Positions 3,950-52,520 of a stretch of DNA of 64,000 nucleotides are shown here, one piece after another (positions within the stretch are counted from its first letter, which is position 1; each line of letters opens with the position of its first letter). Location: NCBI RefSeq assembly GCF_027924665.1, contig NZ_AP027043.1:4836001-4900000 (forward strand). The letters run 5' to 3'. The DNA comes from Flavobacterium sp. GSB-24 (GTDB lineage: Bacteria > Bacteroidota > Bacteroidia > Flavobacteriales > Flavobacteriaceae). Position numbers and translations under genes: made by a program. The notes beneath the pieces were generated by a model. It worked only from the letters and a program-made list of their open reading frames with translations, made no database searches and had not been told where the DNA came from.

Positions 3950-4303
3950 TTAAAAGCCATTCATCAAACTTTTCAATTCCTTTGTTCTGCTAATGGTAAG
4001 CTGCATTCTACAATCTGCGTACATTTTATTTGCTATAACACCACCGTCACCTTCAGAATAGCATTTAAATTTACAATTTGAATCTCTAAATTTTATCCAG
4101 TCTTTTTGAGCAGCAACTAAAGCTGTCTGATCTTTTGTTCCTAATTTATTTTTCAGCTGATTATAAACTTTATTCAATTCTTTATCTGCTTTATCATAAG
4201 CTTCATAAAGCTCTGTTTCACCAGTAGCATCAACTTGGTTTTGTGAAAAACCGAATTGAGAAAAACAAAAGAATAAAAACAATCCGAAAATAACTTTTTT
4301 CAT
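3950..4303 (-). CDS. Secreted LprI-like protein (DUF1311)
   Basis: 117 residues. A signal peptide (MKKVIFGLFLFFCFSQFGFS) is followed by a DUF1311/LprI-type domain: ADKELNKVYNQL, AQKDWIKFRDSNC and, near the end, DCRMQLTISRTKEL. Three Cys (in SNCKFKC and DC) could form disulfides after export. Members have been called lysozyme inhibitors, but most have no tested role. Its place inside the Moco operon, 8 bases from moeB and 24 from moaE, is odd, because the rest of the operon acts in the cytoplasm. Confidence 0.85.
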   Translation of the reverse strand: MKKVIFGLFLFFCFSQFGFSQNQVDATGETELYEAYDKADKELNKVYNQLKNKLGTKDQTALVAAQKDWIKFRDSNCKFKCYSEGDGGVIANKMYADCRMQLTISRTKELKSLMNGF

Positions 4304-4311
4304 AGTAGCTA

Positions 4312-5391
4312 TTATTTATTAATTAGAATGGATTTTTCATGCAACGATTCTTTCATTGCTAAAGCACCTCCAGCAATACTTTTTATATTTTTAAATTGAT
4401 GTTTTTGAAGTAATTCTACTGCAATTTTACTTCTAATTCCCGATTGGCAGAAAATATAAATGGTTTGATTTTTATCTAATTTTTCAATCTCATTTTCTAA
4501 ATTCATTAAAGGAATCTGGATTTGATTTTTTAAATTGATTTTTGGTGATTCATCAGTATTTCTAACATCTAGAAATAAAACGGCATCGTTTTGTTTTTCA
4601 CCCAAAATCAATTCAAAACTTACTTCTTCGGTTTCCGATTTATTGTATTTTTGGTCGAATGCTTCTCTGGTTATTATTTGAAAATCGCTTTTTTCAAAAT
4701 CATATTTCTGCTGTTCGTTATTTAGAATATTATAAACTAATATTTTACCGCTTAAAACTTCTCCTATACCAAGAATCATTTTCAAAACTTCGTTTGCCTG
4801 AAACATTCCGATAATTCCAACGGAAACTCCGATTACTCCGGCATCTTCACAATTCAAAGCATTATTATTTTCCTCGGGATACAAACATCTGTATGTTGGC
4901 CCATTTTGATAATTGAAAACTGAAACCTGCCCCTGAAATCTAAAAATCGATCCATAAACCATTGGTTTATTTAAAACCAGACAAGCATCATTAATTAAAT
5001 ATTTAATTGAAATATTGTCTGTTGCATCGACAATTATATCATATTCTTCGAATAAATTAAAAACATTCTTCCCTGATAATTTCTCTGAAAATGCTTTTAC
5101 TTTTACCTGCGGATTCAATTCTGAAATCATCAGTTTGGCTTCTTTTGCTTTTGATTTTCCAACAGCCGAAGTTTTGTAAATAACCTGTCTATGCAGATTT
5201 GAAATTTCAATACGATCATCATCAATAATTCCGATTTCGCCAACTCCTGCTGCAGCCAGATAGGGCAGAATTGCCGCGCCTAAACCTCCAGCTCCAACAA
5301 CCAAAACTTTCGATTTCAGTAATTTGTATTGTCCTTCCTCTCCTATTTCAGGAAGAATTATTTGTCGGTTATATCGATTTGATGTTTCCAT
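4312..5391 (-). CDS. moeB: MoeB/ThiF adenylyltransferase with C-terminal rhodanese
   Basis: 359 residues. Residues 1-235 are a ThiF/MoeB E1-like domain: VVGAGGLGAA is the ATP-binding loop, DDDRIEISNLHRQ and DATDNISIKYLIND are family marks. It should adenylate the MoaD C-terminal Gly. Residues about 255-355 are a rhodanese domain with active-site Cys in IYIFCQSGIRSK, which can pass sulfur to MoaD. The paired CxxC zinc motifs of E. coli MoeB are not kept: only single Cys are seen in RCLYPE and NCEDAG. The gene follows moaD by 6 bases. Confidence 0.93.
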   Translation of the reverse strand: METSNRYNRQIILPEIGEEGQYKLLKSKVLVVGAGGLGAAILPYLAAAGVGEIGIIDDDRIEISNLHRQVIYKTSAVGKSKAKEAKLMISELNPQVKVKAFSEKLSGKNVFNLFEEYDIIVDATDNISIKYLINDACLVLNKPMVYGSIFRFQGQVSVFNYQNGPTYRCLYPEENNNALNCEDAGVIGVSVGIIGMFQANEVLKMILGIGEVLSGKILVYNILNNEQQKYDFEKSDFQIITREAFDQKYNKSETEEVSFELILGEKQNDAVLFLDVRNTDESPKINLKNQIQIPLMNLENEIEKLDKNQTIYIFCQSGIRSKIAVELLQKHQFKNIKSIAGGALAMKESLHEKSILINK

Positions 5392-5639: not shown

Positions 5640-6428
5640 TTATAAATTTAAATTCTGAAATATAAATTCGTCATCAAAATGTTCTTGAAAATACGAAATC
5701 CAGCTTGACGTATTTCGCACTACTTCTCCAATAACTATAATTGCCGGTGATGAAATCTTTTTTTCAGATACCAATTTACTAATTGTATTGATAGTTCCAA
5801 TTACTTTTTGCTCTGAATTTTTAGTTCCATTCTGAATAATTGCAATTGGCAGGTCATCCTTTCTGTTTTCCTGATAGATAGAAATGATTTCCTCTAATTT
5901 ATGCATTCCCATTAAAATGACAACGGTCGCAGCCGATTTTGAAGCCAATTGAACATCTTTTGATAATTTATGATCTGAAGTTGTCCCGGTAATTACCCAG
6001 AAACTTTCGGCGACTTTACGCTGCGTCAAGCTGATTCCGACCGATGCAGGAACTCCTAAAGCAGATGAAATTCCAGGAACAATTGCCGTTTCGATTCCAA
6101 ATTGTTCTGCAAATTCAATTTCTTCACTTCCTCTCCCAAAAACAAAAGGATCACCGCCTTTTAAGCGGACAACATGTCCATATGTTTTTGCCATACTCAC
6201 AATCAAATCGTTGATCTGATCTTGTGTGTAGGCGTGACAGCCAAGACGTTTTCCAACAAAAACAATTTCTGCATTTGCTGCGTAGTTTAATAATTCCTCG
6301 TTAACCAAAGCATCGTACAAAACTGCGTCTGCATTTTTCAGTGCTTTTATGGCTTTAATTGTGATCAATTCGACGTCTCCAGGACCTGCGCCTACAATCG
6401 TCAATTTTGGTGTTTTTAAGTTTCGCAT
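5640..6428 (-). CDS. cobA: Uroporphyrinogen-III C-methyltransferase (SUMT)
   Basis: 262 residues, the usual size of a single-domain SUMT. It adds two SAM-derived methyl groups to uroporphyrinogen III to give precorrin-2, on the way to siroheme. Motifs: VGAGPGDVELITIKA near 12-27, VLYDALV, KRLGCHAYTQDQIN, VRLKGGDPFVFGRG and VPGISSALGVPA. Siroheme is the cofactor of assimilatory nitrite and sulfite reductases, and the placement among Moco genes favours nitrate/nitrite assimilation. No fused CysG oxidase/chelatase domain is present. Confidence 0.95.
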   Translation of the reverse strand: MRNLKTPKLTIVGAGPGDVELITIKAIKALKNADAVLYDALVNEELLNYAANAEIVFVGKRLGCHAYTQDQINDLIVSMAKTYGHVVRLKGGDPFVFGRGSEEIEFAEQFGIETAIVPGISSALGVPASVGISLTQRKVAESFWVITGTTSDHKLSKDVQLASKSAATVVILMGMHKLEEIISIYQENRKDDLPIAIIQNGTKNSEQKVIGTINTISKLVSEKKISSPAIIVIGEVVRNTSSWISYFQEHFDDEFIFQNLNL

Positions 6429-6433
6429 AATAA

Positions 6434-7006
6434 TTAACTTAAATTGATATTGAGGTCATCTAATTCGTCCATTGAATTAATATTGGTTAAAGGAAAATTT
6501 TCGCTTTCTTCTATTTTTATAATCTGATGCGGTAATTTGGCTAACAAGTCCATCATTTTCAATTCATCAGAATCGATTGCTTCTTTTATTACCGGAACAA
6601 TATTTTTCGAGTAAATACCAATTAAAGGATGTGTTTTACTTTCTGAAGCAAAAATTGTAATTCCCGCCTCTTTCGTATGTTTTGATATTAACTCCTGCAA
6701 TAATTCGGTTGAAATCAAGGGAATATCACAACTTAAAATCAGATTAAATTCGGTTTCAGAATGAGATAATGCTGTGTAAATTCCACCCAGCGGACCTTTA
6801 TCTACAATCAAATCTGGTATTTTTTCATATTCCAGATAATCATAGTTTTTAGATGCTGTGATTAATTTTATTTGATTTGTAATGGGCAGAATCGCCTGAA
6901 TAATGTGATCAATGAATGGTTTATCCTGAAACAAAACCAATCCTTTTTCTGACTGCATTCTTGAGCTTTTTCCGCCGCAAAGAATAAATACTGTTAGTGC
7001 TTCCAT
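6434..7006 (-). CDS. mobA: Molybdenum cofactor guanylyltransferase MobA
   Basis: 190 residues. The N-terminal LCGGKSSRMQSEKGL is the nucleotidyltransferase GTP loop, followed by DKGPLGGIYTAL and the metal-binding LSCDIPLIS. It links GMP to Mo-molybdopterin to make the bis-MGD cofactor used by nitrate reductases of the DMSO-reductase family. This fits a nitrate assimilation role for the operon. It is spaced 5 bases from the SUMT gene. Confidence 0.93.
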   Translation of the reverse strand: MEALTVFILCGGKSSRMQSEKGLVLFQDKPFIDHIIQAILPITNQIKLITASKNYDYLEYEKIPDLIVDKGPLGGIYTALSHSETEFNLILSCDIPLISTELLQELISKHTKEAGITIFASESKTHPLIGIYSKNIVPVIKEAIDSDELKMMDLLAKLPHQIIKIEESENFPLTNINSMDELDDLNINLS

Positions 7007-7103
7007 GACTTTTTTTTATTTCACGTTTCAGGTTGTCAATCTTTATCCCGATGGTCGAAACCGTCGGCTATGTTTCATATAGCAATCATGTAATATTTTA
7101 ATT

Positions 7104-7850
7104 TCAAGGAAAAATCAATTTAATACTTGCCATCAAAATGACTGTTCCTAAAACCATTTTTAATGTTCGGTTAGAAAAAGAACCACTTCCATAAAATCCG
7201 CCTAGCATTCCTCCTACTACGGCAATTGGAACTAAATAAAAACTTTCTATCGGAATTGTTTTTCCTCCTAAAAAGAATCCCAGCATTCCTGCAAATGAAT
7301 TCACAAAAATGAATAAACTCGAAATCGCTGCCGACTCTTTAACAGAAGCCCATCCTAAAAACAATAAAATCGGACTTAAAATTATTCCGCCTCCAATTCC
7401 CAGCATGCCGGACAATAATCCGATGGTAAAACCAATTAATAATGCAAAAGGTAAATTAATTTTTACTTCTTCTTTTTCTTTAAAATTAAATATTCCGAAT
7501 AATCTTAATGCCGCAAAAATCAATACAATTCCTAAAACTATTTTGTAAATTGTATTATCTAAAGTTATAAAACCACCAATAAATGCGGCGGGAATAGAAG
7601 CAATTGCAAACGGATAAAAGAGCGTTGGTTTAAAGTAATTATTTCGGTAGTAAAACAAAAACGAAATACTGGAAACAAATAAATTCAACAATAAAGCAGA
7701 TGGTTTCATAATCGAAATAGGAAACGCAAAAATGCTCATCAAAGCCAAATAACCCGAAGCTCCACCGTGCCCAACGCTTGAATATAAAAACGCAATAACG
7801 ATTAAGGCGAAACTGAATAATACTATATTTTCGGAACTAAGGAGACTCAT
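7104..7850 (-). CDS. TSUP (TauE/SafE) family membrane permease
   Basis: 248 residues, seven to eight hydrophobic segments. Marks of the family are SSVGHGGASGYLALM in the first half and GLLSGMLGIGGGIILSPILLFLGW in the second, an internal repeat. TSUP proteins move sulfite, sulfonates or other small anions across the inner membrane. The substrate here is unknown; placement between moeA and mobA suggests an anion tied to Moco or nitrite/sulfite metabolism. Gaps of 97 and 89 bases on either side are the widest in the operon, so an internal promoter is possible. Confidence 0.88.
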   Translation of the reverse strand: MSLLSSENIVLFSFALIVIAFLYSSVGHGGASGYLALMSIFAFPISIMKPSALLLNLFVSSISFLFYYRNNYFKPTLFYPFAIASIPAAFIGGFITLDNTIYKIVLGIVLIFAALRLFGIFNFKEKEEVKINLPFALLIGFTIGLLSGMLGIGGGIILSPILLFLGWASVKESAAISSLFIFVNSFAGMLGFFLGGKTIPIESFYLVPIAVVGGMLGGFYGSGSFSNRTLKMVLGTVILMASIKLIFP

Positions 7851-7939
7851 TTTTTGGTTTAATTGTTTAATCGTTTTTTTGCTTCAATCTATTTTCTTCT
7901 TCTATTTTCTTTTCTCTATTTTCTTTCTTCTTAAAAAAA

Positions 7940-9112
7940 CTAATCAATTGGCAAAATAGTCACTAATTGTCCTTCTTTTATATTTTCTAGATCTTGCTCT
8001 ACAATTACCAATCCGTTTGCAATAGCAAAAGAGTTAAGCATCGCCGAACTTTGACCATCTAAAATTGTTACGTTTGTTTCGTCGTATTTTGCTTTTAAAA
8101 ACAACGTTTTTCCTGTATCATTTTTGATTTCAGAATTTACCTTTCGAACTACTTTTGGTTTATGAATTTCAGAAAAACCCATTTTATTTTTCACTGCCGG
8201 CAAAACATAAATATAAAAATTAGTCAATGACGAAGCTGGATTTCCTGGAAGTGCAAAAACTAAAGTTTCTTTTTTAGATCCAAAAAACATTGGTTTTCCA
8301 GGCTTTTGGTTGATTTTATAAAATAGTTCTTCTACTCCATTTTTCAATAACGCTTCTTTTACAAAATCGTAGTCACCTACAGAAATTCCACCCGAAATTA
8401 ATACGATATCATTCTTTTTTAAAATTGATTTTAATGCCTTCTTCGTGGCTTTTAGATTATCTTTTACTCTGTAAACTTTCGTTTTTTCGATTCCAATTGT
8501 CTCAAGTGCTGCCTGAAGCATAATAGAATTACTTTCGAATATTTTTCCTTTTTTTAGTTTTTTTCCAGGCTCTACTAATTCATTTCCAGTAACTAAAATA
8601 CCTATTTTGGGCTTTTTATAAACTTCAATTTCTGTAATTCCCAAACAAGCTAGAAATCCAATTGCGGCAGGAGTCAACAAAGTATTAGGTTCGAAAACAA
8701 CATCACCTTTGCCAATTTGCTCTCCTTTTGCACGAACATTTGTATTTTTCTCTGGCATTTGAGCAATTAGAATTGAATCTGTATTGGCCATTACATGCTC
8801 CTGCATTACCACTGTATCAGCATCGTCTGGAACATAGGCACCAGTAAATATTCTGATGGCTTCATTTTGTTTTAGTTTGATATTGGAGTGATCTCCAGCC
8901 TGAGAAATCCCTACAATATCGTATTGATGTCTTATACTGTGCGTAAAAGCATACCCATCCATTGCAGATTGACGAAAAGGAGGCATAGAAATTGGCGAGT
9001 AAATTGTTTCTGCCAAAACATAGCCTCGCGCTTTCTGTACTTTAATTTTCTGCGTTGGCATAACATTACTATTCGTTGCTACAATTTCTAAAGCTTCTTT
9101 TACTTCTATCAT
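7940..9112 (-). CDS. moeA: Molybdopterin molybdenumtransferase MoeA
   Basis: 390 residues, normal length. It inserts molybdate into adenylated molybdopterin. Motifs in order: SPISMPPFRQSAMDGYAF near 36-53, GAYVPDDADTVVMQEHV, TGNELVEPGKKLKKGKIFESN, LISGGISVGDYDFVKEAL and LPGNPASSLTNFYIYVLP. It is the first gene of the leftward Moco operon and has a clear promoter with a palindromic operator just upstream. Confidence 0.96.
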   Translation of the reverse strand: MIEVKEALEIVATNSNVMPTQKIKVQKARGYVLAETIYSPISMPPFRQSAMDGYAFTHSIRHQYDIVGISQAGDHSNIKLKQNEAIRIFTGAYVPDDADTVVMQEHVMANTDSILIAQMPEKNTNVRAKGEQIGKGDVVFEPNTLLTPAAIGFLACLGITEIEVYKKPKIGILVTGNELVEPGKKLKKGKIFESNSIMLQAALETIGIEKTKVYRVKDNLKATKKALKSILKKNDIVLISGGISVGDYDFVKEALLKNGVEELFYKINQKPGKPMFFGSKKETLVFALPGNPASSLTNFYIYVLPAVKNKMGFSEIHKPKVVRKVNSEIKNDTGKTLFLKAKYDETNVTILDGQSSAMLNSFAIANGLVIVEQDLENIKEGQLVTILPID

Positions 9113-35858: not shown

Positions 35859-37613
35859 ATGAAAGCAAAAGCATTCGATACAGGATTATTCAAACGAATT
35901 TTAAAATATACAAAGCCTTATAAATGGCGTTACTACGGTGTAATTATTTTCGCCGTATCGCTGTCTATTTTCGCCGCACTCCGCCCCTATTTACTTAAAG
36001 AAACCGTAGATGGATATATCAAAACCCATGACAAGACGGGATTATTGATGTATATCATTTTGATGGGTGTAGTTTTATTAATGGAAGTTTTCTCGCAGTT
36101 TTACTTTGTATATTGGGCGAACTGGCTCGGTCAAGACATTGTTAAGGACATTCGAACAAAACTTTTTAAACACATTTTGAGTTTCAGAATGAAGTATTTT
36201 GATTTGGTTCCGGTTGGCCAGTTGGTTACTCGAGCCGTTTCAGACATTGAATCGATTGCCCGTATTTTCAGTCAAGGTTTATTTATGATTATAAGCGACT
36301 TGATGAAAATGTTTGTCGTACTTATTTTTATGTTTTACATGAACTGGAAGCTGACTTGGATTGTGGTTCTTGCCATGCCTATTTTGGTTTTCATTACTAG
36401 AATATTTCAACGTAAAATGCAGGTGGCTTTTGAAGAAGTGAGAACTCAGATTGCGAACATGAATTCTTTTGTACAGGAACGCGTAACGGGAATGAAAATC
36501 GTTCAGCTTTTTAACCGTGAAAAAATCGAAGCCGAAAACTTCAAAGACATCAACAATAAACATCGCGTTGCTTGGATCAAAACGATTTTATACAACTCGA
36601 TCTTCTTCCCTATTGCTGATATTATTTCATCTATCACTTTGGGATTAGTTGTGGTTTACGGCGGTTTTAGAATCTTGAACGGAGATCATTTTACCACTTT
36701 TGGAGATTTGTTTTCGTATACAATGTTCATTGGAATGCTCTTTAATCCATTAAGACAAATTGCAGATAAATTCAATGAGATGCAGTTGGGAATGATTGCA
36801 GCCAATCGTGTTTTTGATATTATAGATACACAAGATCATATTCAGGATACTGGAAAAATTGAAGCGCCAGTTTTTAACGGAAGCATAGAATTTGAAGCGG
36901 TGCGTTTTAGTTATATTCCCGAGGAAGAAGTTATAAAAGGAATTGATTTATCTGTTGCTGCGGGACAAACAGTAGCCATTGTAGGTTCTACAGGTGCAGG
37001 AAAATCTACTATAATCAATCTGTTGAATCGTTTTTACGAAATTAACAGCGGAACAATCTCTATTGACGACGAAAATATCGAGAACTATACGTTGGCTTCA
37101 CTTCGAAAACAAATCGCAGTGGTTTTACAAGATGTATTTTTGTTTGCCGATACTATTTACAATAACATCACTTTACATAATCCAGAAATTACCCGCGATC
37201 AAGTAATTGATGCCGCGAAGAAAATTGGCGTTCATGATTTTATTATGAATCTGCCCGATAATTATGATTTTGATGTAAAAGAGCGAGGCGTAATGCTGTC
37301 GTCTGGACAAAGACAATTGATTGCTTTTTTACGTTCGTATGTAAGCAATCCAAGTATTTTGATTTTAGACGAAGCAACTTCTTCTATAGATACCTATTCT
37401 GAAGAATTGATTCAGCGTGCAACTGAAACAATTACAAAAGGAAGAACTTCTATTATTATTGCCCACCGATTGGCAACAATTGTAAATGCAGATAAGATTG
37501 TAGTGATGGACAAAGGACTAATTGTTGAACAAGGAACGCATCAGGAATTATTGCACAAAACTGATGGTTATTATAAAAACCTGTACGATTCGCAATTTTC
37601 AGTAGCTAATTAA
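35859..37613 (+). CDS. MsbA-like ABC exporter, fused permease and ATPase
   Basis: 584 residues. Six spans in residues 20-310 form the type-1 exporter domain. The ATPase has Walker A GSTGAGKS at 376-383, Q-loop VVLQDVFLF, signature LSSGQRQ, Walker B ILILDEATSS and the H-loop IIAHRLAT. It acts as a homodimer or with a partner half-transporter. MsbA-type lipid flippase or multidrug exporter are both possible; no substrate gene is adjacent. Confidence 0.93.
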   Translation: MKAKAFDTGLFKRILKYTKPYKWRYYGVIIFAVSLSIFAALRPYLLKETVDGYIKTHDKTGLLMYIILMGVVLLMEVFSQFYFVYWANWLGQDIVKDIRTKLFKHILSFRMKYFDLVPVGQLVTRAVSDIESIARIFSQGLFMIISDLMKMFVVLIFMFYMNWKLTWIVVLAMPILVFITRIFQRKMQVAFEEVRTQIANMNSFVQERVTGMKIVQLFNREKIEAENFKDINNKHRVAWIKTILYNSIFFPIADIISSITLGLVVVYGGFRILNGDHFTTFGDLFSYTMFIGMLFNPLRQIADKFNEMQLGMIAANRVFDIIDTQDHIQDTGKIEAPVFNGSIEFEAVRFSYIPEEEVIKGIDLSVAAGQTVAIVGSTGAGKSTIINLLNRFYEINSGTISIDDENIENYTLASLRKQIAVVLQDVFLFADTIYNNITLHNPEITRDQVIDAAKKIGVHDFIMNLPDNYDFDVKERGVMLSSGQRQLIAFLRSYVSNPSILILDEATSSIDTYSEELIQRATETITKGRTSIIIAHRLATIVNADKIVVMDKGLIVEQGTHQELLHKTDGYYKNLYDSQFSVAN

Positions 37614-37730
37614 CTCTGCAAAAATTCTATATCTTTTATTTTCAAATTCTTACAGATAATTTAAATACTAAAAACAGGATTATTAATTATATTTTGGGCA
37701 AAATAAATTAACACACCCCAATAATATTAC

Positions 37731-37761
37731 TTGTTTTCTTACAAATAAATAAGTAAGTTTG
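37731..37761 (+). promoter_or_regulatory. Promoter of ubiquitin gene 1
   Basis: TTG at 37731-37733, 20-base spacer and TAAGTTTG at 37754-37761, a full match to the flavobacterial consensus. The same layout and spacer length precede the second ubiquitin gene. Confidence 0.75.
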
Positions 37762-37789: not shown

Positions 37790-38083
37790 ATGAAAAAAAA
37801 ATTACTTTTTATCGTTTTATTTCTAGCCTTTTCGGCTAATGCATTCTCAATGCAAATTATTATAAGAGTTGTTGGTTCTCTACAAACTATAACTCTTGAG
37901 GTGGAAAGTTCTGATACTATTGAGAATATTAAGTTTAAGATACAAGATAAAGCAGGAATTCATCCTGATTGTATAAGGCTTATATTTGCAGGAAAACAAC
38001 TTGAAGACGGCAGAACATTATCTGATTATAACATTCAAAAAGATTCCTTTATACATCTAGTTATAGGTTATCCATGCAATTAA
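37790..38083 (+). CDS. Secreted ubiquitin 1
   Basis: 97 residues. Signal peptide 1-20 ends ANAFS, so cleavage leaves Met21 as the exact first residue of a ubiquitin domain (MQIIIRV). By my alignment about 52 of 76 ubiquitin positions are identical, including an unbroken match over ubiquitin residues 42-63. Lys27, 29, 33, 48 and 63, Ile44, His68 and Val70 are kept; Lys6 is Arg and Lys11 is not kept. One residue is added in the first beta hairpin. The tail reads IGYPCN instead of the RLRGG needed for conjugation. Bacteroides fragilis is known to have a secreted ubiquitin (BfUbb). Acquisition from a eukaryote is likely. Confidence 0.95.
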
Positions 38084-38141
38084 TTGTTTCTTAAAGAAGT
38101 AGCAAAAAAACACTTTTAAAAAAATGTGTAAGATTAAAAAT

Positions 38142-38178
38142 AAAAGGGTTTGGCTTTTTTTAAAGTTGAACCCTTTTT
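38142..38178 (+). terminator. Terminator of ubiquitin gene 1
   Basis: AAAAGGGTTTGGCTTT pairs imperfectly with AAAGTTGAACCCTTTT and is followed by T. The same stem, better paired, ends the second ubiquitin gene. Confidence 0.75.
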
Positions 38179-38366
38179 TCATACGACCTTAGAATTGATT
38201 TTAAATGTTTCTCTATCTAAATCTGATTGAATTTTAATAGCTAATTAGCTTTAAGAAATGACTTACATCTTTAACTCTCAAAATCTTACAAACACTTAAA
38301 CACTAAAAATACAATCATTCATTATATTTAAGGCAAAATGAATTTAGCATAACTCAACAATACAAC

Positions 38367-38397
38367 TTGTATTCTTACAAATAAATAAGTATGTTTG
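38367..38397 (+). promoter_or_regulatory. Promoter of ubiquitin gene 2
   Basis: TTG at 38367-38369, 20-base spacer, TATGTTTG at 38390-38397. The surrounding bases closely match those before gene 1 (for example TTCTTACAAATAAATAAGTA), so the promoter was duplicated with the gene. Confidence 0.75.
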
Positions 38398-38427
38398 AAA
38401 AATAAATAATCATTTTTAAAAAATACC

Positions 38428-38724
38428 ATGAGAAAAAAATTACTTATTACCGTTTTATTTCTAGCCTTTTCGATTAATGCATTCTCAATGCAAATTTTTG
38501 TAAGAGTTGTGGGTAGTGGAAAAACTATAACCGTTGAGATGGAAAGTTCTGATACTATTGATAATCTTAAGGCTAAAATATTCGAGAAAGAAGGAATTCC
38601 AGTAGAATGCCAAAGAATTATATTTGGAGGAATACAACTTGAAGACAGCAGGACATTATCTGATTATAATATTCAAAAAGACTACTCTGTACATCTCGTT
38701 ATTAGTAATCCATGTAATAAATAA
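38428..38724 (+). CDS. Secreted ubiquitin 2 (tandem paralogue)
   Basis: 98 residues, with a signal peptide (1-20, ends INAFS) almost identical to copy 1 and mature start MQIFVRVVG. About 48 of 76 ubiquitin positions are identical by my alignment, including ubiquitin residues 54-63. Lys27, 29, 33 and 63 are kept but Lys48 is Ile, Gly53 is Ser, and the tail is ISNPCNK without Gly-Gly. Residues at the beta1-beta2 turn (SGKTIT) are closer to ubiquitin than in copy 1, while other parts are more diverged, so the paralogues have drifted in different places. The single Cys near the C-terminus is kept in both. Confidence 0.95.
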
Positions 38725-39114
38725 TTTTTGTAAAGAAGATAACCATGTGTTTAGAAAACATTTAAAATAAATTCTAAATACACTTATTACAATAAAAGGG
38801 TCTAACTTTAACTAAAGTCAGACCCTTTTTTCACATATAACTTTACTTAATTGCATTGTTAAAGGTTAAGCAAACTGGATAGATTCATAACTTAATGACC
38901 TTTTATCTTAAATTTCACACTACACTCAAAATTAAAAAACTACATAATTCACAATTTGTGATTTAAAATCCGATTAAAAACTGTCGAAATCGCTTTAAAA
39001 CGTTAAATTAGCGTTATAGAAATCATAAAATTGATCTTTCATAATCAACAACATAGCGGTAATTTTTCGTTTATTATTTATCTTTGAGAATATAGAAATC
39101 AAATGTAAAAGAAA
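38725..39114. other. Gap after ubiquitin 2
   Basis: This 390-base gap holds the terminator at 38794-38830 and a -7-like TATCTTTG at 39079-39086 for the next gene. Between them I see only AT-rich sequence with no coding signal. Confidence 0.6.
38794..38830 (+). terminator. Terminator of ubiquitin gene 2
   Basis: AAAAGGGTCTAACTTT pairs with AAAGTCAGACCCTTTT, 4-base loop, followed by T. Confidence 0.9.
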
Positions 39115-39699
39115 ATGCCACAAAATAGATTTTATCCGAACGAACAGTTTAAAGAAATAGAAATAAATGCCTCATTACAATTAAGATATGCAATTTCAAA
39201 CAGAGGAAGACTTATAAGTTTTACTGATGAAATTGAAAACGGACGCATCCTGAAAGGCGGATTAAGCGATGGATATCCAACCTTCCGTTTTAAGGTTAAA
39301 AAAGACGATAAAATCGTAAACAAATATCTCTTCCTATACAAATTAGTAGCCCAATATTTTATTCCGAAAGATTCCGAAGATCAAACGTATGTTCTGCATT
39401 TAGATTACAACAGAGCAAATGATGATGTAAGCAATTTACGCTGGGCAACCAAGCAGGAAATGATGGCGCACAGCCGTAAAAGTCCGAGAGTTATCCAAGC
39501 CAAAAAGAATCTAATCGAACACAATCTTAAAGCCGACGGACGAAAATTAACAACAACGAAAGTCATGTTAATCAAAAAAATTCTTGCGCGCCCAGAACAA
39601 AAAACGCGTCTTAAAATGATTGCCAAACAATTCGGAGTAAGCGAAATGCAGATTAGAAGAATTGCCAGCGGAGAAAACTGGGGACACGTTAAGATTTAA
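39115..39699 (+). CDS. NUMOD4/HNH-like protein with C-terminal helix-turn-helix
   Basis: 194 residues. The N-terminal part (YAISNRGRLISFTDEIENGRILKGG, then YLFLYKLVAQYFIP) matches the NUMOD4-type domain of homing endonucleases. HLDYNRANDDVSNLRWATKQEM aligns with an HNH core, but the usual D-H-x-N is replaced by L-H-L-D-Y-N, so nuclease activity is doubtful. The end (IAKQFGVSEMQIRRIASGENWGHV) is a helix-turn-helix like NUMOD1. A DNA-binding role is likely. It may be a domesticated homing-endonuclease relative; I see no intron or mobile element around it. Confidence 0.75.
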   Translation: MPQNRFYPNEQFKEIEINASLQLRYAISNRGRLISFTDEIENGRILKGGLSDGYPTFRFKVKKDDKIVNKYLFLYKLVAQYFIPKDSEDQTYVLHLDYNRANDDVSNLRWATKQEMMAHSRKSPRVIQAKKNLIEHNLKADGRKLTTTKVMLIKKILARPEQKTRLKMIAKQFGVSEMQIRRIASGENWGHVKI

Positions 39700-39790
39700 T
39701 GGTTAATGGTTGATAGTTAATGGTTGATGGTTGATTATTAATTGTTTGATGTTACTTCAAAATTAACAACTAACAATTAACAATTAACAA
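39697..39790. repeat. Mirror-image heptad arrays after the NUMOD4-like gene
   Basis: Seven plus-sense units from 39697 (TAATGGT, TAATGGT, TGATAGT, TAATGGT, TGATGGT, TGATTAT, TAATTGT), then four opposite-sense units from 39761 (AATTAAC, AACTAAC, AATTAAC, AATTAAC). The first array starts at the stop codon. Confidence 0.9.
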
Positions 39791-52385: not shown

Positions 52386-52427
52386 TTTTTTTCAAATTTT
52401 GCTCTTATGAAAAATTAAATTTCTCTT

Positions 52428-52520
52428 CTAGCCCCGATGGAAACGGCATCCTTTTTTGGCTCTCCACTCCTATTGTCTGCCAAAAAAGATATAGTGGACA
52501 GCGGGACAAGTGGTCTTTTT
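52428..52520 (+). ncRNA. Structured intergenic RNA-like element
   Basis: Begins TAGCCCCGATGG and ends GACAGCGGGACAA. GATG/CATC closes a small hairpin, CCTTTTTTGGC pairs with GCCAAAAAAG across an 18-base loop, and CCCG at the start can pair with CGGG at the end. I recall sequences of this layout (AGCCCCGAT, GGCATCC, AGATATAG, AGCGGGA) in many flavobacterial intergenic regions; it may be the Rfam Flavo-1 motif, but I cannot check. A terminator follows. Confidence 0.55.

Follow-up and report, generated by a model that had tools for sequence, protein, structure and literature searches.

Introduction

The closest described counterpart of the genes reported here is BfUbb, the product of the ubb gene of Bacteroides fragilis, which in the parts of two reports that we draw on (Patrick 2011, PMC3352274; Chatzidaki-Livanis 2017, PMC5705921) is presented as one of very few eukaryote-like ubiquitins in bacteria. 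According to the same extracts, BfUbb inhibits ubiquitination in vitro and binds human E1 (PMC3352274; PMC5705921), and it is toxic to some B. fragilis strains, with potent killing, while the authors' data suggest that no immunity protein is needed against it (PMC5705921). The ubb locus of B. fragilis is described there in three states, present in 13, 73 and 11 of 97 genomes (PMC5705921; PMC3352274). The sections used of the later report also describe a secreted ubiquitin of plant-parasitic nematodes as an effector (PMC5705921).

Here we analyse a window of 64,000 nucleotides from Flavobacterium sp. GSB-24 (contig NZ_AP027043.1, positions 4,836,001 to 4,900,000), in which an earlier reading of the DNA without database searches (the sequence-only reading) had proposed two adjacent genes for secreted ubiquitins at 37790..38724. 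The pair is a real, bacterial, exported variant of the BfUbb kind.

Two exported ubiquitins encoded side by side

Both open reading frames are present as proposed, on the plus strand at 37790-38083 (copy 1, 97 codons) and 38428-38724 (copy 2, 98 codons), and they are the only ubiquitin copies that we found in the genome. Read directly from the translations, each begins with a signal peptide of 20 residues (37790..37849 and 38428..38487, both +), in which a Lys-rich stretch gives way to a hydrophobic one and N-A-F-S stands directly before the first Met of ubiquitin (MQ). The leader ends fit the -3/-1 rule (A, S), with the predicted mature start at ubiquitin Met1 and the cleavage site judged by eye from the translation, and neither leader has a lipobox when read by eye. 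The exact fusion of signal peptide to Met1 that had been described earlier agrees with these translations, and export is likewise supported.

The mature domains comprise 77 residues plus stop in copy 1 (37850..38083, +) and 78 residues plus stop in copy 2 (38488..38724, +). Over residues 1-71 of human ubiquitin, 52 positions are identical in copy 1 and 48 in copy 2, the same numbers that the sequence-only reading had counted against eukaryotic ubiquitin, and the two mature copies share 52 identical residues with each other. Profile searches matched the two proteins to Pfam PF00240 with E-values of 2.1e-24 and 1.7e-26, and PDB chains of single ubiquitins matched them at ~1e-28 and ~1e-26, with none of the PDB matches recognisable as BfUbb. 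Likewise, an AlphaFold2 model of mature copy 1 (mean pLDDT 91.6) was identified by Foldseek as ubiquitin with a probability of 1.00 and a TM of ~0.9.

Several features had gone unmentioned in the sequence-only reading, namely a single extra residue in the first turn of ubiquitin in both copies, the cysteines Cys40 and Cys75 in both, the replacement of Arg72 by Gly in copy 1 and by Ser in copy 2, and the missing GG. Both copies end in PCN(K), as opposed to the RLRGG of ubiquitin, and lack the C-terminal diglycine of a conjugated modifier. When the seven ubiquitin lysines were compared, Lys27, Lys29, Lys33 and Lys63 were kept in both copies, Lys6 was Arg in both, Lys11 was gone from copy 1 and Lys48 was changed to Ile in copy 2. 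Ile44, Val70 and most of the ubiquitin fold surface are retained.

The T9SS C-terminal sorting domain PF18962 is missing from both window proteins, which rules them out as T9SS cargo, and domain profiles gave no surface anchor on the stand-alone ubiquitin forms. PADLOC returned no match. A search of the host genome for E2 enzymes (PF00179) was also without a match, as it was in 14 control genomes, and the ThiF family gave six matches in the host genome, five of them above the cut-off; the one inside the window (~4696-5373) is unlinked to the pair. This ThiF-family gene (PF00899; 4312-5391, -) lies far from the ubiquitin genes and probably encodes a cofactor-synthesis enzyme.

Separate transcription signals

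Each copy has its own signals on the plus strand. A TTG-N20-TAnnTTTG motif, which we take to be the flavobacterial-type promoter of the phylum, ends 28 bp before the ATG of copy 1 (37730..37761) and about 30 bp before that of copy 2 (38369..38400), and a terminator hairpin with a T run follows the respective genes at 38142..38177 (-17.7 kcal/mol, z -5.7) and 38794..38829 (-17.0 kcal/mol, z -5.0). With a promoter-like motif and a hairpin terminator for each copy, the pair reads as two units, and we reject a single two-gene operon. The copy 1 hairpin was not in the output of a simple scan for sigma-70 promoters and short-loop terminators, a scan that proved uninformative at this locus. The promoter pattern (N17-24) recurs in 12 of 14 ubiquitin units, missing only from F. 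notoginsengisoli copy 1 and G340, and occurred in 0.7% of shuffled versions of a single region, that upstream of unit 1. From upstream region through terminator the two ~0.6-kb units are 77% identical (460/597 columns). The only Rfam match in the window is a Flavo-1 RNA (RF01705, 73 bits) at 52426-52512 (+), away from the pair.

Cysteines occur in complete pairs

We next compared 28 stand-alone sequences (27 unique), 15 from loci and 13 from protein searches, with the truncated P0168 and eukaryote-like matches left out and leader cysteines uncounted. The GG tail is missing from the stand-alone forms. Cys40 and a tail cysteine (73 or 75) occur together in 24 of the 27 unique sequences and are both absent from 3, while 10 have Cys19 together with Cys57 and 17 have neither; a half-complete pair or an odd cysteine count was seen in 0/27. 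Cysteine-free forms are P0185 and two Flavobacterium orthologues. The 17 fused or other bacterial ubiquitins of alignment A3 are all without these cysteines.

This pattern of complete pairs points to disulfides, one of which would tie the tail to the body. Positions 19 and 57 presumably touch in the ubiquitin fold. Among PMC12853789, PMC11354881, PMC10942258 and PMC10637973, each represented here by extracts, one source places positions 19 and 57 within one contact patch of ubiquitin and one groups Gln40 with Leu71 and Arg72. On the best tree the pairs changed 5 and 3 times, always together, with one change each on well-supported branches; given the kinship of the sequences and this single well-supported event per pair, no significance can be claimed for the pairing. 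With the diglycine lost, the tail probably closed by a disulfide and Arg72 replaced in the window copies, conjugation is very unlikely.

A variable chromosomal slot

The pair occupies a variable slot bordered on the left by a conserved ABC transporter gene (35859..37613, +) and on the right by a NUMOD4/HNH gene (39115..39699, +; PF07463, PF13392), which are 94-99% and 93-98% identical, respectively, to their counterparts in eight other ubiquitin-bearing Flavobacterium loci. Ubiquitin matches were found in 13 of the 398 genomes of the genus sample, eight having stand-alone forms in 1, 2 or 3 copies and five having ubiquitin at the start of longer frames, and the phylum sample (6/395 matched) added a ninth genome with stand-alone forms, G1082. 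In 9/9 stand-alone Flavobacterium genomes the ubiquitin genes are flanked by this ABC transporter gene on one side and this NUMOD4 gene on the other. The pair is thus no isolated case; the two copies belong to a locus that carries one to three separate units in nine genomes. As assembled, the ubiquitin copy of G340 has no in-frame start codon.

The genome G230, of the same species, has no ubiquitin match; its similarity to the window ends 3 bp past the ABC transporter stop codon, and ~10 kb of other genes (sensor kinase, metallopeptidase, SusC, SusD and LytR, named by eye) precede NUMOD4. NUMOD4 was matched in 152/398 genomes, and among the 30 best NUMOD4 loci the slot held ubiquitin in 5, was empty in 10 and held LytR in 15. 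The gap in empty slots is 143-350 bp (7 of the 10 measured), and the LytR matches span 253-254 residues, with SusD also in view at 11 of the 15. Weak LytR 3' remnants (E 3e-4 to 2e-3) lie between ubiquitin and NUMOD4 at L046, L020 and L092, with none in the window slot, and at L022 and L023 a second copy of the ABC transporter 3' end is found behind ubiquitin. These remnants, duplicated ends and alternative contents suggest replacement and recombination at the slot, which is in this respect similar to the ubb locus of B. fragilis with its three states. Beside it, at ~39690-39755 of the window, is a short intergenic dispersed repeat with dozens of similar places in G230.

Across 11 ubiquitin gene pairs, one of which is the two window copies, dS is 0.23-0.68, a range that short genes and codon bias may partly depress, compared with 0.79-1.59 in 10 flank-gene pairs, and ubiquitin dS is below NUMOD4 dS in 8/8 matched genome pairs. 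The contrast is largest between window copy 1 and F. sp. 270 (0.23 for ubiquitin, 1.45 for NUMOD4) and mild between window copy 2 and F. notoginsengisoli (0.68 and 0.91). For dN/dS, ubiquitin gave 0.03-0.62 and the flanks 0.02-0.05; no ubiquitin pair exceeds 1, and an arms race or positive selection is thus unsupported. Lower dS together with higher dN/dS than in the neighbours is what would be expected of an exchanged, fast-changing accessory gene, and the transfer of cassettes between species seems to postdate the species split, with the encoded proteins changing faster.

Relatives and other exported ubiquitins

Full-length protein searches were swamped by eukaryotic polyubiquitins, and it was a leader-region query that found relatives, returning NCBI 'ubiquitin-like protein' entries of Flavobacterium sp. 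CFBP9031, F. tyrosinilyticum, F. sp. HJSW_4, F. collinsii and F. chungangensis. These entries belong to the same family, have the same leader type and, in those retrieved, the same cysteine pairs, but carry automatic names only. Partial lists of titles and abstract openings from the open-licence literature contained no description of a flavobacterial secreted ubiquitin. The idea that such a tandem pair is little described holds for these lists, whereas its relatives already have database entries.

In a tree of 52 rows, 26 of the 27 stand-alone sequences form one clade (100/97), which includes a sequence from another genus of the family (G540) and adjoins plant- and fungus-type ubiquitins; P0185 lies apart on a long branch. 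When the cysteine and tail columns were removed, the stand-alone clade was not recovered against the eukaryotic rows, and the tree holds only eight eukaryotic or viral rows, some partial. Since clade support rests on those columns and eukaryotic rows are few, we put forward an origin from a plant- or fungus-type donor as a suggestion.

Exported ubiquitin domains occur in many bacteria beyond Flavobacterium and B. fragilis. Eight of the 397 genomes in the family sample matched ubiquitin, and five of these eight encode six leader-ubiquitin proteins with a T9SS-like tail in frames of 170-201 codons, the tail being PF18962 in the two relatives tested (L085 and L086). A genome scan gave 19 ubiquitin loci, 14 outside Flavobacterium, and in 12 of these 14 ubiquitin follows immediately on a hydrophobic leader (by eye; L027 was unviewed and L037 differs). 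Downstream of the leader-ubiquitin part are SLH (Paenibacillus), IPTL-CTERM (Brevundimonas, Paracidovorax) or other long regions without assignment. The T9SS, SLH and IPTL-CTERM proteins resemble the window pair in having the leader joined to Met1, but there ubiquitin, which lacks the cysteines, heads a larger protein that is probably anchored.

Some further loci deserve mention in their own right. In two Flavobacterium genomes, G002 (L011) and G212 (L012), a leader-ubiquitin opens frames of 583 and 358 codons whose downstream parts are repetitive and of surface type. An uncultured Cytophagales MAG (L037, ~6001-9031) has frames unlike the stand-alone forms, in which cysteine-rich leaders (GGCCCKK) come before divergent ubiquitin-like domains in tandem. 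Plasmid pRUMAL01 of Ruminococcus albus 7 (L083, NC_014824.1 387760-388500) carries a 'ubiquitin family protein' gene with a phosphatidylinositol-specific phospholipase C gene and a dockerin protein as neighbours. The viral-labelled contig IMGVR_UViG_3300021559_000195 (L078) encodes a leader and stand-alone ubiquitin with an intact LRLRGG end (3953-4279, +), the only such case among five viral-contig loci, with a cyclophilin ORF in the same stretch (1613-2149, -). A phage origin was rejected, with no match in 50,697 phage records.

Proposed function and alternatives

The pair matches BfUbb in protein plan and in the way its locus behaves, which leads us to read the pair as an antibacterial antagonist, bacteriocin-like in the manner of BfUbb; to this reading as a whole we would give an even chance. 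Sec would export a small protein, cleaved exactly at ubiquitin Met1, and periplasmic oxidation would bond tail Cys75 to body Cys40, yielding a free, stable ubiquitin fold that could not be conjugated. We infer that the protein is then released and acts like a bacteriocin on related Bacteroidota, where its non-covalent partner would be a protein of the target's envelope, a periplasmic peptidyl-prolyl isomerase (PPIase) being the most plausible candidate, as reported for BfUbb. With copies multiplying, diverging quickly and passing from species to species at a single slot, variants with different target ranges would arise.

BfUbb is said to bind an essential PPIase via its C-terminal disulfide, reportedly the finding of Jiang in 2024. 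A PPIase as the target is nevertheless a doubtful part of our proposal. The L101-type FKBP, whose best match is the PPIase chain of PDB 6h3i (which we take to be the SprA translocon complex), shows no residue by which 9 carriers could be told from 12 non-carriers, and its sequences in the window genome and in the non-carrier G230 are 100% identical. The three other exported PPIases were compared between these two genomes only: two cyclophilin-FKBP proteins differ by 2 and 1 substitutions, and a GldI-like FKBP by 3 substitutions and 6 gap positions (names by eye), differences that do not lend themselves to interpretation. Of 42 loci, 1 has a PPIase gene close to ubiquitin (L078; overlapping loci are counted, and L045 is without ubiquitin), and the L078 cyclophilin was rejected as an immunity gene because it was seen in this locus only. 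Neither the FKBP allele comparison nor the PPIase linkage survey supports a resistance or immunity signature, and with the B. fragilis target gene unpinned here both are weak tests in either direction.

Alternatively, the proteins could be effectors or decoys directed at eukaryotes, mimicking ubiquitin or blocking the E1, E2 or deubiquitinases of plant, fungal or protist partners. The retained Ile44, Val70 and fold surface would suit such a role, as would the in vitro activity and human E1 binding of BfUbb and the nematode effector, as given in the extracts cited above (PMC3352274; PMC5705921). However, we consider it unlikely, as GG is missing, the tail is probably bonded to Cys40, Arg72 is replaced in both copies and Lys48 is lost in copy 2; moreover, no route into host cells was identified, albeit without a systematic search, and it is potent killing of bacteria that the portions used of the later report ascribe to BfUbb (PMC5705921). 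The sequence-only reading had left the site of action between host, competitor and structural role, and while the missing GG, a tail probably closed by a disulfide and the replacement of Arg72 weigh against use of a host conjugation pathway, a bacterial competitor would be the likeliest target of the three.

A role within the envelope of the producer itself, as a disulfide-stabilised periplasmic binding protein, adhesin or structural part, strikes us as a slightly poorer prospect again: ubiquitin domains do head T9SS, SLH and IPTL-CTERM proteins, yet the stand-alone forms have no anchor, their genes are exchanged and fast changing, and ubiquitin is absent from the same-species genome G230 and from most of the genus (13/398 matched). 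Divergent tandem copies, and cysteine-free copies in two genomes, would fit a harmless ubiquitin that competes with neighbours' ubiquitin toxins for the same target, but such an immunity decoy is improbable, as sequence does not favour decoy over toxin and the Cys40-tail pair is kept in both window copies. Eukaryotic contamination or a dead gene has next to no chance despite the high identity to eukaryotic ubiquitin, as the pair sits on a 5.29-Mb contig of a genome that is 100% complete with 0.23% contamination, has a bacterial leader and transcription signals, recurs at the same locus in other Flavobacterium assemblies (the ground on which we reject contamination) and gives dN/dS <1 between species.

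Building on the antibacterial antagonist, we also offer a wider and speculative reading, towards which we are more sceptical than not. Exported ubiquitin may be a recurrent bacterial invention: bacteria would have acquired ubiquitin from eukaryotes on more than one occasion, given it a leader, removed its conjugation tail and either locked it with one or two disulfides in stand-alone forms or anchored it at the surface, to form a group of extracellular antagonists that change fast. The Flavobacterium slot would then be a locus into which toxins are swapped. If true, this invention has so far gone largely unrecognised. A diverging multi-copy family with paired cysteines lets comparison ask how ubiquitin became antibacterial and offers natural variants for mapping target specificity, and in it a highly conserved eukaryotic protein is seen changing fast once freed from conjugation.

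Comparison with known systems

The secreted ubiquitin of plant-parasitic nematodes, so far as the extracts used describe it, is alike in combining a leader with a ubiquitin that acts outside its producer, but differs in being an animal gene with a cleaved C-terminal extension (PMC5705921). The likeness to the B. fragilis ubiquitin, already remarked on in the sequence-only reading, goes further. Judged by the portions of the BfUbb reports available here, the window pair shares with it a leader joined exactly to Met1, the absence of GG with a C-terminal Cys, ~63% identity to human ubiquitin and a strain-variable chromosomal slot with empty and alternative forms. From the same portions, the flanking genes of the BfUbb locus differ from those of the Flavobacterium slot, and antibacterial activity is reported for BfUbb, whereas for the Flavobacterium copies it would follow from likeness. 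The Flavobacterium forms have Cys40 as the probable partner of the tail and an optional Cys19-Cys57 pair, the comparison with BfUbb here covering its C-terminal Cys only, and in place of the one gene per genome described for BfUbb, Flavobacterium carries one to three diverging copies.
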